A stretch of DNA of 25,911 nt from a virus: IMG/VR virus record IMGVR_UViG_3300029448_000320, positions 1 to 25,911 of that record; one strand, given 5' to 3'. Each line of letters begins with the position of its first letter. The stretch's first letter is position 1. Below are positions 3,868-22,400 of the stretch, one piece after another. Below the pieces are notes generated by a model. That model was given only the letters and a program-made list of their open reading frames with translations. It had not been told where the DNA came from and did not search any database. Made by a program: the position numbers and the translations under genes.

Positions 3868-3951
3868 TTATATGCCAGCACCATGACCTATCAGTAGTAC
3901 GCCTATAACGATAATGCATAAAGCTATTGTTCCAATTAAATCCTGTACCAT
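3868..3951 (-). CDS. 27-residue hydrophobic micropeptide
   Basis: A very short frame with a perfect ribosome site (AAGGAG, eight bases before ATG 3951) encodes a peptide whose residues 5-22 (LIGTIALCIIVIGVLLIG) form one membrane-spanning helix. The N-terminus is MVQD and the C-terminus HGAGI. The stop codon sits in the loop of a perfect 6-base-pair hairpin (3862-3867 with 3874-3879). It lies alone between two early genes in a 330-base stretch otherwise free of genes. It could be an early membrane-acting or host-modifying peptide; it is too short to be a normal holin. Coding status rests on the ribosome site and the coherent helix. Confidence 0.55.
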   Translation of the reverse strand: MVQDLIGTIALCIIVIGVLLIGHGAGI

Positions 3952-4016
3952 GCGTGTCTCCTTTTTGCTGGTTAGTTGTAATAGGTAGACTCGAAAGCCT
4001 ACCTATCTAGGTTGAG

Positions 4017-4427
4017 TTATGATGCTCTATACTTTGACATCTTGGCATTAACCTCTTTGTTTTCCTCAGGTGTGAGGTGATTAACTTTAGCTGAAGTAGA
4101 AGACTTGTTTGTCCACTCTTCACCATGTAAATCTTTGAACACTGCTAAATCTGCTTCATGGTCTTGCTTAATTATAGCAAGAGTTTCTTCAGCTTGCTTA
4201 AACCATTCACTAATGGTTTCTGCTTTAGTAATGTTTCCATTGTCTCTAGCTGTATCATGGTCACTTACTAATGCAGGTAGTCTGGTATTTTGATACCAAT
4301 TCAGTAAATTGTAACTTTTGTAACATGAATCTTGAGACCTTTTTCTGTAAAGCCAGCCATCCTGTTCGACTGAGCTTGTACTTCCGTATTGAGCTACTTC
4401 CAGTTTATGTTTAATTAAAGCTTTCAA
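4017..4427 (-). CDS. Hypothetical early protein, 136 aa
   Basis: Not recognised. The protein is soluble, rich in charged and polar residues, with a Trp-containing N-terminal half (DGWLYRKRSQDSCYKSYNLLNWYQ) and a helical C-terminal half (AETISEWFKQAEETLAIIK, LTPEENKEVNAKMSKYR). The start is TTG 4427: a perfect AAGGAG lies seven bases upstream and no in-frame ATG is near. It is the first gene of the leftward cluster, next to the divergent control region, so it is probably expressed very early. A small perfect hairpin (4448-4464) is in its leader, just before the ribosome site. Confidence 0.7.
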   Translation of the reverse strand: MKALIKHKLEVAQYGSTSSVEQDGWLYRKRSQDSCYKSYNLLNWYQNTRLPALVSDHDTARDNGNITKAETISEWFKQAEETLAIIKQDHEADLAVFKDLHGEEWTNKSSTSAKVNHLTPEENKEVNAKMSKYRAS

Positions 4428-4447
4428 TGTATTTCTCCTTATAATAG

Positions 4448-4464
4448 ACGGAGTTTATCTCCGT
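4448..4464 (-). promoter_or_regulatory. Leader hairpin before the first early gene
   Basis: ACGGAG (4448-4453) and CTCCGT (4459-4464) form a perfect 6-base-pair stem with a 5-base loop, located about ten bases upstream of the ribosome site of the TTG-initiated gene. It may shield or stabilise the mRNA 5' end. Confidence 0.4.
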
Positions 4465-4571
4465 ACTTAGGATTGACAGCCATATTCTATCTGGCAAGGA
4501 TGCAATGAAAAACTAACAACACCACACACGCAACCAGTATTATACACAGAACTGCGCAACAACCATCTTGC

Positions 4572-4617
4572 AATAGGAATTGCGGAGGGTCCGCTTGCGG
4601 AAACCGTCATTCCTATT
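4572..4617. repeat. Branched inverted repeat (three-way junction)
   Basis: AATAGGAAT (4572-4580) and ATTCCTATT (4609-4617) form a perfect 9-base-pair outer stem. Inside are two hairpins: GCGGA / TCCGC around GGG (4582-4594), and GCGG / CCGT around AAA (4597-4607). Almost every base is used. It could be a structured RNA or a protein-binding DNA cruciform. Confidence 0.5.
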
Positions 4618-4658
4618 TCAAGACCAGATGGGATGTGGCAGACAAGACACGGAGATAA

Positions 4659-4778
4659 ATGCAGACTATTCTAAGGCAAGAGAAATACAGCCAGAAAGAT
4701 TTATGCAAAACATCAACGCCAGAAGTAGGTCAATCGGAATACAGGGAAGGAGACAGGAACTTGGATGGATTTACATAA
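4659..4778 (+). CDS. Possible small protein, 39 aa
   Basis: A short frame starts at ATG 4659 with GGAG four bases upstream and ends at TAA 4776-4778. The peptide begins MQTILRQEKYSQKDL and is polar, with one cysteine. It lies in the control region on the late-gene strand. The end of the frame overlaps an inverted-repeat arm, so the region may instead be purely regulatory. Nothing in the sequence identifies a function. Confidence 0.25.
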   Translation: MQTILRQEKYSQKDLCKTSTPEVGQSEYREGDRNLDGFT

Positions 4779-4828
4779 AAAGTCTCCCTTGTAATATGCT
4801 TGTAATATGTGTGCAATTTCCCTGTATT
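4738..4828. repeat. Nested inverted repeats with an 11-base tandem duplication
   Basis: AATACAGGGAA (4738-4748) pairs perfectly with TTCCCTGTATT (4818-4828). Within it GGAGAC (4749-4754) pairs with GTCTCC (4782-4787). Between the two right-hand arms CTTGTAATATG is repeated exactly twice in tandem (4788-4798, 4799-4809). The layout suggests a regulatory RNA fold or an operator with repeated half-sites. Confidence 0.5.
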
Positions 4829-4874
4829 GGCTCTCATAACATGCCTATTTGAGGAAAATGCAGGGTAAATACAT

Positions 4875-4912
4875 ATTGTGAGTTGACAACAGCATTTAAC
4901 TAAAACTATCTG
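4875..4912 (+). promoter_or_regulatory. Late promoter motif P1, before small terminase
   Basis: ATTGTGAGTTGACAA (4875-4889) is the first of four related sites. It contains a perfect -35 hexamer TTGACA; the best -10 at 18 bases is TATCTG. It lies about 60 bases before the small terminase start and probably drives the terminase genes. Confidence 0.5.
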
Positions 4913-4916
4913 TGAA

Positions 4917-4939
4917 GGGGGAGAGGTAAGGAGAGGGGG
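4917..4939 (+). repeat. Polypurine mirror repeat overlapping the terS ribosome site
   Basis: GGGGGAGAGG (4917-4926) is followed by TAA and then by its mirror image GGAGAGGGGG (4930-4939). All bases except one T are purines. The right half supplies the Shine-Dalgarno for the gene at 4950. Such mirror repeats can form triplex DNA, and the G-runs could form a weak quadruplex. Confidence 0.5.
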
Positions 4940-4949
4940 TTGTTCTGAG

Positions 4950-5327
4950 ATGATACCTGTAAGTAATAGAAAACTAACACGAAGACAGATAGCTTTAGTT
5001 GATGCATATGTAGCAAATGGAGGGAATGTCACACAAGCCGCAAAAGAAGCTGGATATGCAGAGGGAGATTCGGGCAGAGTCAGCGCACAAAGGGCTTTGA
5101 AGACTGCCCATGTCAAACAACACATGATGCAAGTAGTAGCAGATGAGTTTAGTAAACATGCTCCGATGGCATTGGGTCAGTTAGCTGGACTAAGCAAGAG
5201 AGCTAAGAGTGAGTATGTACAGCTAGAAGCGAGTAAAGATTTACTTGACAGGGCAGGATTCAAGCCTGTTGACCGCAGTCAAGTGCAAGTAGCTGGTGAC
5301 ATTCGTGTCAGCATAGACCTGTCATGA
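4950..5327 (+). CDS. terS: Terminase small subunit
   Basis: A 125-residue protein with the N-terminal helix-turn-helix of small terminases: LTRRQIALVDAYVANGGNVT, QAAKEAGYAE, then SAQRALKTAHVKQHM. This is the pattern of the Terminase_2-type DNA-recognition domain, which binds the packaging site and hands DNA to the large subunit. The C-terminal half is helical (LAGLSKRAKSEYVQLEASKD) and fits oligomerisation. It is the first late gene, preceded by a G-rich ribosome site and promoter motif P1, and is followed by the large subunit after one small gene. Length is usual. A recognition sequence in or next to this gene would be usual, which makes the G-rich boxes on both sides of it of interest. Confidence 0.82.
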   Translation: MIPVSNRKLTRRQIALVDAYVANGGNVTQAAKEAGYAEGDSGRVSAQRALKTAHVKQHMMQVVADEFSKHAPMALGQLAGLSKRAKSEYVQLEASKDLLDRAGFKPVDRSQVQVAGDIRVSIDLS

Positions 5328-19433: not shown

Positions 19434-22400
19434 GTACAGTAAATGGTTTAGATTATTTTTCACGCACAGTTAGCCCTGATTTAAATTTACAAAGAACTGA
19501 TGAAAAAGTTCCTTGGACTAAACGAGCAGTAGCTAATTTAAAATTTAATTACCAAAATCAAATTAATTATATGTTTCATCGCCCTATCTATGATGAAAAC
19601 TTTAATCTTACTTATGATATGATACCTGATGATTTAAAACAGTACGCAGTATTATTAGCTGATTCTGAAAGCGAGGCTCATTTAGATAATCAAATTTCAA
19701 TGATACGCAAAGGTTTAGATACAAGAGCAGCTAGAAATCAAACAGGTTTTTTTGAAAGTTTTGCTTACGAATTGTTAGACCCAATTAATTTTATAGCGTT
19801 ACCTTTCGGTGGCCCTAGTTTTGGTATTGGTAAATCTGCTTTAAGAGTTGGTGCTGGTGTTACAGCGTTAATAGCTGGTAAAGAAGCTACTCGTTATGCT
19901 GTTGACCCATTAGCTACTAAAGAAGAGGTAGCGTTAGAGGTTGGTTCTGCGGCTGTGTTTGGTAGTTTGTTTGGTGGATTACTTGGTGTATCTCCTACAC
20001 TAAGAGCTAAAGCTACAGCTAAAGCAGTTAAAGAACATAAGACAGTATTGCGTGCATTAGATGGTTTAACACCAGATGATATAGAATTATTAGGTGCAAG
20101 AGAAACAAGAGCATTTGGAAAAGCTAGTAATAAAACATTAAGAACTGATTTATCTCTTGCAAAAAAACGCAATGATAACACGCGTGTTACAGAAATTAAT
20201 CAAGAAATAGCATTAAGAGAATTAGAAGGTTATAAAGATAAAGACCAAAATAGTATTTATAGAGATGATAACTTTTTTGTAAGAGGTGTATCTAATCCTT
20301 ATAAAAGATTTTTACGAACACCTTTAACAACAACTAAAAGTTATATGCATCAATTAGCAGCTGACCACGGTTTATTAACTAATGGTAATTTAGCTGGGGA
20401 AGTAACGGGTAGTTCTGTTTATGTAAAAGCTAAAGTAAGAAGAGGTCAAGTTTACAAAACACAATTAGAAATGTCTTTACTTTGGGCTGATGATATAGGG
20501 GGTGCAACAACTTTTGCTGGTTATAATCCTACTAATTTTAAAGCAAGAATTAATAAAAGAATTGGTCGAGAAGGTAAAGCTACATTAAATGATTGGATGG
20601 CAGGAGTAAGTCGAAAAAGAATATTAGAAGATTTTAATAATATGACTCCTAACGAAAAAAAAGCATCTGATATGTTAGATGATTATTTTAATAAATATGA
20701 AGTAGAATTAAGAGAAAATGGTTTAATAGGGTCTTCTAAACATTATAGAAAAATTATTAAAAAAGATGAAGATTCAATTACAGCACATGAAACTAGATTA
20801 AAAACATTAAGAGATAAAAGAGCTATAGAAAAATCTAAAAGAACAATAGCAAGGTTAAAAGAAAGACTTATTGAAAGTCGAAAATTACTTGATGATGCAT
20901 TTACAAATCCTAATAAACCAACAAATGAAACTCATTTCTTTGCGCGTTATTTTGATGCTGAAGCAATTAAAAAAGATAGAACAGGATTTACACAAAAAAT
21001 TATTGCACATTTTAAAGCTAACCCACATCCTAGGAAATCTGATAGTGACCAAGCTATAAAATTAAGAGCAGAAGAAACTGTTAAAAAAATTCTTAATGAA
21101 AGACATGACCCAATAAACCCTGACAAAATATTTTTAGGTGCTGGTTCTGCTAAACACACTATTAGTAGAACATTAGATATTCCTAATAAAGATGTTGTAG
21201 ATTACTTAGTTACTGACCCAATGGATGTTATGTACGAGTATGACAGGCGTATGGCTCCAGCTTTAGAATTTAATAAAATGTACGGTAATAAAGATATTGA
21301 AGATATATTAGATGAAATTGAATTAGATGGCATGGCTCAAGGTATGAGCCAAAGAAAAATTAATGCTGCGCTTAAAGATTTTAGACATATGTATGATAGA
21401 ATTGTTGGTGTTGTTAAAAAAGACCCAAGTAAAAGGTCTCATAAAATTGGTTATTTTTTAAGTGAGTTAGCAAGTACAAGTTATTTAGGTTCTGCTGGTT
21501 TAGCTACTATAAGTGAGCCAGCAAAAATGCTTATGACTAATGAATTAAGCACAGTATTTAGGTCATTGTTTTCTGCATTAGATAGATTTGATGATACAAC
21601 TTCTGTTGGATTTAGAGAAACTATGCTTGCTGGTGAAGGTTGGGAAGTAAGGGCTGGTGGAGCGCAAAGACGTTTTATGGAAGAAATGATGAGCAATAAT
21701 AAATACGCTAAAGTATGGAATCAAAGTAAAAATGCTTTTTATACATTAAACGGCCTTACTCCTATGACTGTATTTTTAAAAAATTGGGAAAGTTTAAATA
21801 GACAACATACTATTATTGACCGTTCTATTCGGTGGTCTCAAGGTAAAAATGCTAAAAAACCTATTACTTCTGAAGAAAGAACATTTTTAATAGGATATAA
21901 TATAGATTTTAAAACAGCGCAAAAAATTGCAAAAGCACCTTGGCAAAAAACTAGAGCAGGGCAATATGTTGCAAACACAGAAGCTTGGGTAAAAGCTACA
22001 GAATTTCCTGACGTTGCTGAAGGCGTTAATATTATTACAGGAGAAAAAGTAGGAAAAACTAATGACCAAGGCATTTATAAAAATGCTTGGTATGACAATA
22101 ATACAAAGACTATTTATATAGATGAAGATGATATACTTTTACAATTTAAGAAAAAACCTTGGTTATCTCCTACAAGAAAAGGTGTAAAGCCATTACCTGA
22201 TGATATGTTTAAAACTCCTCAAGACTGGTTAGATTTTGTTAAAATGCATGAAATATTACACACAACAAATAGACCAGAAAAATTTGGGTTTAAATTATTT
22301 GATGAAGTTAAAACTAAAAATGTTAAATTAAATAATGAAAATATAATAAATAGATATAAAGATAATTTAGATGAAGAAATAGATTTTAATTTACGTTCAA

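Follow-up and report, generated by a model that had tools for sequence, protein, structure and literature searches.

Genes and features at the divergent junction

The virus record IMGVR_UViG_3300029448_000320 comprises 27,785 bases, and the stretch analysed here (the window, 25,911 nucleotides) is a part of it; the source is a marine virus that infects bacteria. Rightward from the terminase small subunit gene terS (4950..5327, + strand; phrog_2538, E 3.5e-14), which is the first gene in that direction, run T7-like structural genes including terL, the head-tail adaptor, the major head protein and tail proteins. Leftward from position 4427 the genes are smaller, and a long fold-back sits at the divergent junction with the rightward terS/structural operon. 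On the minus strand at 1643-1990 there is a RusA-like Holliday-junction resolvase (phrog_244, E 7.4e-12), which would be relevant should the repeat described below ever form a cruciform.

The first leftward gene, gene1 (4017..4427, minus strand), encodes 136 amino acids, starts with TTG, has an AAGGAG ribosome-binding site (complementary to 4435-4440) and is overlapped by the left arm of the fold-back. It belongs to no Pfam or PHROG family, its one NCBIfam match in the window is sub-threshold (TIGR00731, 16.6 bits, where the cut-off is 73.1), and a search of 50,697 phage records with the gene1 protein of locus L008 returned nothing. Structure prediction confidently (pLDDT 88.8) gives the protein as a long antiparallel helical hairpin. 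With this model Foldseek found nothing in the PDB at E 0.001 or better, and its best viral structure matches are uncharacterised phage proteins (E 0.001). A lengthened Rop variant (E 0.88) is one among many helical matches and too weak to be informative.

Between the fold-back and terS lies the element TTGACA, 17 nt, CTATCT (4883..4911, + strand), which we take from its consensus to be a sigma70-like promoter. The motif TTGAC recurs within 130 nt upstream of terS in 129 of 144 loci, and this conserved element is located downstream of the right arm; upstream of the left arm, a scan of 11 loci found no conserved sigma70-like promoter on the + strand. The promoter is followed by a polypurine tract that is mirror-symmetric rather than inverted, GGGGGAGAGG-TAA-GGAGAGGGGG (4917..4939, + strand), and that might form a G-quadruplex or a triplex. 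Relatives often carry GGGGGGAGAGAGGGAGAGGGGGG instead. In 71 of 144 loci, paired G tracts lie in the 130 nt that precede terS, and in some groups (those of L039 and L010) the G tract pairs with the gene1 antisense within the fold.

A long fold-back and its tip

The inverted repeat originally reported at 4572-4617 is the apex of a far longer fold-back. The two arms, 4334-4494 and 4624-4786, pair on the + strand over about 125 bp and enclose a tip hairpin at 4566-4623; the repeat search, too, gave arms longer than the reported stem. In the fold of 4150-4950 the outer helices are 4334-4371/4748-4786, 4375-4412/4708-4745 and 4416-4449/4664-4703, and the inner ones are 4453-4464/4649-4660, 4470-4494/4624-4648 and the tip, 4566-4585/4604-4623. 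The left (5') arm (4334..4494, + strand; folding and alignment) runs antisense to gene1, covering its leader, its ribosome-binding site, its start codon and roughly its first 30 codons, and is thus by construction complementary to the start of a protein gene on the opposite strand. The right (3') arm (4624..4786, + strand; folding and alignment) is a non-coding, inverted copy of the beginning of gene1 that has diverged from it by substitutions and short indels, and its alignment goes on, more weakly, to about 4919. On the 5' side of the tip there is an A/C-rich, largely unpaired loop (4495..4565, + strand; folding and pattern scan), in which ACAACCATC and an 18-nt spacing to AGGGT are common to the relatives.

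The structure of the fold-back is well supported. The + strand of 4430-4690 folds at -85.6, against -49.3 +/- 3.9 for its shuffles (z -9.3, 0/100), while the minus strand gives z -4.2 and the neighbouring 4690-4950, taken on its own, a z near 0.

The sequence-only reading had described 4572-4617 as a compact three-way junction in which a 9-bp perfect outer stem encloses two small hairpins. The stem is real, since AATAGGAAT (4572-4580) pairs fully with ATTCCTATT (4609-4617), but the boundaries were too narrow: the 9-bp stem is lengthened by TCTTG/CAAGA to give the complete tip hairpin (4566..4623, + strand; repeat search and folding), and beyond the A/C-rich loop the stems extend to 4334-4786. 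Within the reported repeat (+ strand; folding and covariation), the 9-bp stem is followed by an internal loop, AGGG/AA, and an apical TCCG/CGGA stem. As RNA, the 46-nt tip folds at -19.4 kcal/mol on the + strand (z -3.6; 1/200 shuffles equally good) and at -17.8 kcal/mol on the minus strand (z -4.3; 0/200). The three-way form did not hold up for RNA, which prefers the linear hairpin by 3.7 kcal/mol (-19.4 vs -15.7); it is the minimum only under DNA parameters (-11.1 vs -9.7 for the linear form).

Covariation, which had been proposed as a check, points the same way, and compensatory changes are present in the tip as well as in the arms of the L039 and L010 groups. The tip alignment consists of the window and L094, L001, L002, L003, L005, L089 and L093, some of which are nearly identical, so that its eight sequences amount to about four kinds. 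In it, the linear pairs covary (0.263 vs 0.102 in shuffles, 0/500 as high), with both sides changed in 9 of 30 pairs and 90.8% of cells paired, a share that drops to 48.3% or less when the sides are slid. The nine pairs of the three-way junction do not covary (0.063 vs 0.080 in shuffles; 401/500 as high).

Other parts of the first description can be judged from the same region. The statement that the element is not a tRNA agrees with ARAGORN, which finds none. The region had been called gene-free, which is right for the tip and wrong for the structure as a whole, given that the left arm lies within an opposite-strand gene. Coding potential at the tip would have spoken against a structural role, and no coding sign is seen there: the + strand ORF at 4580-4852 has no PHROG match, and its region differs in relatives by a long insertion. 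The suggestion of a structured RNA survives by virtue of the compensatory changes; the words small and compact do not, as the tip caps a fold-back of several hundred nucleotides. A transcription signal in the sense of a terminator is unlikely, because neither strand has a T-run after the hairpin. Rfam 15 gave no match at gathering score in the window, in 15 loci or in 18 further loci; up to E 5 the only match was at chance level (E 5), elsewhere in the region, and nothing was credible.

Recurrence upstream of terS

Loci were sampled as 80 relatives of the terS of the window, 80 relatives of the terS of Pelagibacter phage EXVC031P Hodr (OQ414635) and 11 found by the tip pattern (five of them on contigs already sampled). 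Where enough upstream DNA was available, each terS locus was scored by its best inverted repeat within 1,300 nt upstream of terS, and 136 control stretches came from other parts of the same records and from phage MEP301 (mean 54, maximum 100). In the first set, with the window and Hodr included, 43 of 77 loci score above 100, that is, above every control; when both terS sets are reduced to 77 clusters of upstream sequence, 33 do. A score of 100 or less is no evidence of absence: among the other 44 clusters, L018, L015, L066 and L052 still fold strongly upstream of terS, without a long copy of the gene.

The relatives come from uncultivated phages and from the isolate Hodr; the arms reach about 500 bp and may span the whole gene. 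In L005 the arm alignment covers the entire gene, with 375 matched positions, and a stretch of 1,021 nt folds at -518.6 kcal/mol. Hodr has the same arrangement, with 185 matched positions and a repeat that ends beside terS (L082; 19529-19742 pairs with 19792-19996); the annotation of its record mentions nothing of this kind. Among bacterial genomes, eight loci with terS relatives were found in metagenome bins, whose hosts are uninformative, and four of the seven that were scored exceed 100 (L197, L198, L200 and L201). A search for DNA similarity to 4430-4960 in phage records returned two chance matches only, and the literature searched, with subscription papers outside its coverage, described no structure of this type from these phages.

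The overlapped gene is in most groups a member of a single family (alignment A7, 14 members), whose identity between groups falls to approximately 25-40%. For Hodr and L047, the matches listed include none between the overlapped gene and the gene1 family, and the fold-back is nonetheless present, which implies that a gene1-specific target is not required.

Co-evolution of the arms with gene1

To judge from its substitution pattern, gene1 is under purifying selection both within and outside the arm. Between L010 and L009, pN and pS are 0.02 and 0.21 inside the arm, and 0.065 and 0.16 outside it; over ten pairs, the values inside the arm range from 0.07 to 0.82 for pS and from 0.006 to 0.36 for pN. 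The synonymous rate shows no consistent lowering inside the arm, and it is therefore the inverted copy that follows the gene.

The alignments indicate how: the opposite arm tracks the synonymous drift of gene1 through compensatory changes, which exceed the controls, as expected of a structured RNA under selection. In the L039 group, which has 232 pairs, pairing holds in 86.1% of cells but in no more than 46.6% once the arms are slid, and 33 pairs are changed on both sides vs 18.9 in shuffles (0/500). The L010 group has 260 pairs and 2,080 cells, and 97.0% of these cells are paired; changes on both sides occur in 23 cells vs 10.0 in shuffles (0/500), although counted as pairs the number is eight, not clearly above the shuffles (6.5; 78/500). 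A single case can be followed by eye: C4480-G4638 in the window becomes A-T in L094, its nearest relative.

One strand is favoured

Each transition that separates the arms results in a G-U pair on the + strand (A-C on the minus strand) or in the converse, so that the two strands can be compared. Over the 33 clusters there are 415 transitions of the G-U type on the + strand and 131 of the A-C type, along with 879 transversions; 30 clusters favour the + strand, two the minus strand (L124, 5:10, and L127, 2:6, as G-U:A-C) and one is tied (sign test, 2.5e-7). Among mismatches with three matched pairs on either side the counts are 78 G-U, 13 A-C and 104 others, these last including 26 GA/AG, 9 GG and 39 TC/CT. 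In 52 low-scoring loci, whose alignments are mostly due to chance, the counts are 539 vs 407. The signal of the window itself is weak (9 vs 5, and none of its eight clean mismatches is G-U or A-C). Strand-specific base composition was considered as the cause of the bias and set aside: the keto skew of the flanking + strand (0.059) is estimated to yield about 1.13:1, which is too small.

Because transitions of the G-U type outnumber those of the A-C type, it is the + strand that folds. Most likely it does so as RNA, which is the simplest carrier.

Possible roles of the fold-back

The fold-back sits between divergent genes and overlaps the first leftward one, a position that suggests a cis-antisense, double-stranded RNA role. 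From this structure, its recurrence, the co-evolution of the non-coding arm with the gene and the strand preference, we infer transcription and a regulatory action: a long fold-back RNA that is antisense to this leftward gene would act as a cis-antisense regulator at the divergent junction. We place the probability of this explanation slightly below one half (about 0.47). The rightward (+ strand) transcript would have as its 5' arm the antisense of the first leftward gene (its leader, start and about 30 codons in the window, the whole gene in some relatives) and as its 3' arm the inverted and diverged copy of the same gene region. It would then fold into one imperfect rod, of about 140 bp in the window and up to approximately 450 bp in relatives; the cap would be a tip that is specific to the subgroup and likely to bind a protein. 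The RNA may shut down or process the leftward mRNA, probably through the double-strand-specific RNase III, around the early-to-late change, as rightward expression takes over. The weak points of this explanation are that no promoter is evident before the left arm and that the conserved promoter comes after the right arm.

The properties of the fold-back can also be accounted for in other ways. Packaging sites often sit directly before terS, as the fold-back does, and the + strand could fold as single-stranded DNA, or the repeat as a cruciform, during replication or packaging (as an origin, a terminase site or a self-priming end), with no RNA involved. DNA tolerates G-T as well, the tip adopts the three-way junction under DNA parameters, and the genome encodes the RusA-like resolvase (1643-1990). 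The left ends of contigs, moreover, cluster 0-200 nt upstream of terS in 16 of the 94 loci whose sampled stretch includes such an end (12 at 0-100 nt and 4 at 100-200 nt, with 1 more at 200-500 nt). These ends, however, do not share one position and some fall within the G tract, which is what assembly breaks would produce and which leaves a genome end at the fold-back unsupported. The pairs of the three-way form do not covary, and the G-A and G-G mismatches that DNA tolerates are not enriched (26 and 9, vs 39 TC/CT). Besides, a double-stranded cruciform has no strand preference, so that the G-U bias needs one exposed strand, and we consider a DNA element of this sort unlikely. The palindrome might instead be kept for a DNA reason, with the strand bias reflecting the avoidance of pairing in the leftward gene1 mRNA; a leader that included the right arm would be loosened by minus-strand A-C mismatches. 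Little would be gained, since the minus strand folds nearly as strongly (in L005, -484 vs -582 kcal/mol), and other types of mismatch would serve better, all of which makes this proposal very improbable.

A different kind of explanation does without function: an inverted duplication whose arms are kept alike by template switching, or quasi-palindrome correction. Template switching can create and mend hairpin arms, according to PMC8794818, and the absence of a consistently lowered synonymous rate in the arm, with the copy following the gene, fits such a process, which may well contribute to the way in which the arm follows gene1. As the whole explanation it is distinctly doubtful. Correction at the DNA level is strand-blind, yet G-U exceeds A-C threefold, and sixfold where the context is clean, a bias that template switching does not seem to explain; many short indels persist in the arms, the design is kept even where gene1 identity is no more than 25-40%, and an unselected palindrome of this size should presumably be lost. 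As for the view that only the local element at 4572-4617 matters, as a small three-way-junction RNA, a terminator or a processing site, the 46-nt fold does beat its shuffles. Relatives, however, keep the linear tip within the long fold-back and not the three-way form, there is neither a T-run nor an Rfam match, and this view is already largely refuted and hardly credible.

Comparison with known systems

The antisense RNAs OOP of lambda and sar of P22 are short, cis-encoded phage RNAs that are not known to carry an inverted copy of their own target. The fold-back RNA would resemble them in being read, at a regulatory junction, from the strand opposite a gene start and would differ in that its antisense part makes up one side of a rod as long as approximately 450 bp. 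Hairpin loci of flies and plants arise by inverted duplication, and their RNAs act in trans through Dicer and Argonaute. The likeness to fly hairpin RNA loci and to plant inverted-duplication hairpin genes (PMC10292708, among others) lies in a long, gene-derived hairpin whose arms evolve with the gene; here, unlike there, one arm is the opposite strand of the gene itself, in a phage. The mitochondria of Nematomorpha contain coding palindromes, with both arms coding and perfect repeats of up to 284 bp (PMC6649704); they share with the fold-back the presence of long inverted repeats over coding sequence and the joint maintenance of protein and secondary structure, whereas here one arm codes and the arms are imperfect and strand-biased. 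GOLLD, ROOL and OLE (PMC12286853) are likewise large structured RNAs of bacteria and phages; the fold-back is a rod and not an ornate multi-domain structure, it overlaps a gene, and it has no Rfam match (window and 33 loci).

It is quite possible, although we put it forward tentatively, that these fold-backs represent a novel class of phage RNA, a giant fold-back in which the antisense of a neighbouring gene supplies one arm and compensatory evolution keeps up the other; the odds are fair that it warrants a class separate from the known cis-antisense and structured phage RNAs. If so, the same DNA would have two readings, the first leftward gene and a long double-stranded RNA, regulatory or structural, and the design would have been retained across many divergent phage lineages, even through gene replacement. 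Bacteria usually destroy long double-stranded RNA; a phage group whose non-coding DNA follows a coding gene, and so preserves a hairpin hundreds of base pairs long, would be an uncommon example of selection for RNA structure on top of protein sequence. The element matches nothing in Rfam, its relatives are plentiful in IMG/VR, and Hodr, on Pelagibacter HTCC1062, is an isolate that permits direct tests of transcription, RNase III cleavage and timing.

Additional observations

Several other structures were seen in these genomes. L018, L015 and L006 have, upstream of terS, a different and very stable multi-domain structure of about 500 nt without a long gene copy; in L018 it gives z -10.8 on the + strand and -3.9 on the minus strand (ten shuffles each). 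L123-L125, L200 and L201 carry a long inverted repeat (about 418-442 matched positions) without the + strand bias, which may be a recent copy or use the opposite strand. Between gene1 and the next leftward gene there is a 27-codon ORF (3868-3951, minus strand) for a small hydrophobic peptide, MVQDLIGTIALCIIVIGVLLIGHGAGI, noticed by eye, as were its counterparts in L005 and L002. Directly past gene1, at approximately 3975-4015, lies a short GGTAGACTCGAAAGCCTACC-like hairpin with an equivalent site in L005 and L002, and, again by eye, the three sequences show compensatory differences.
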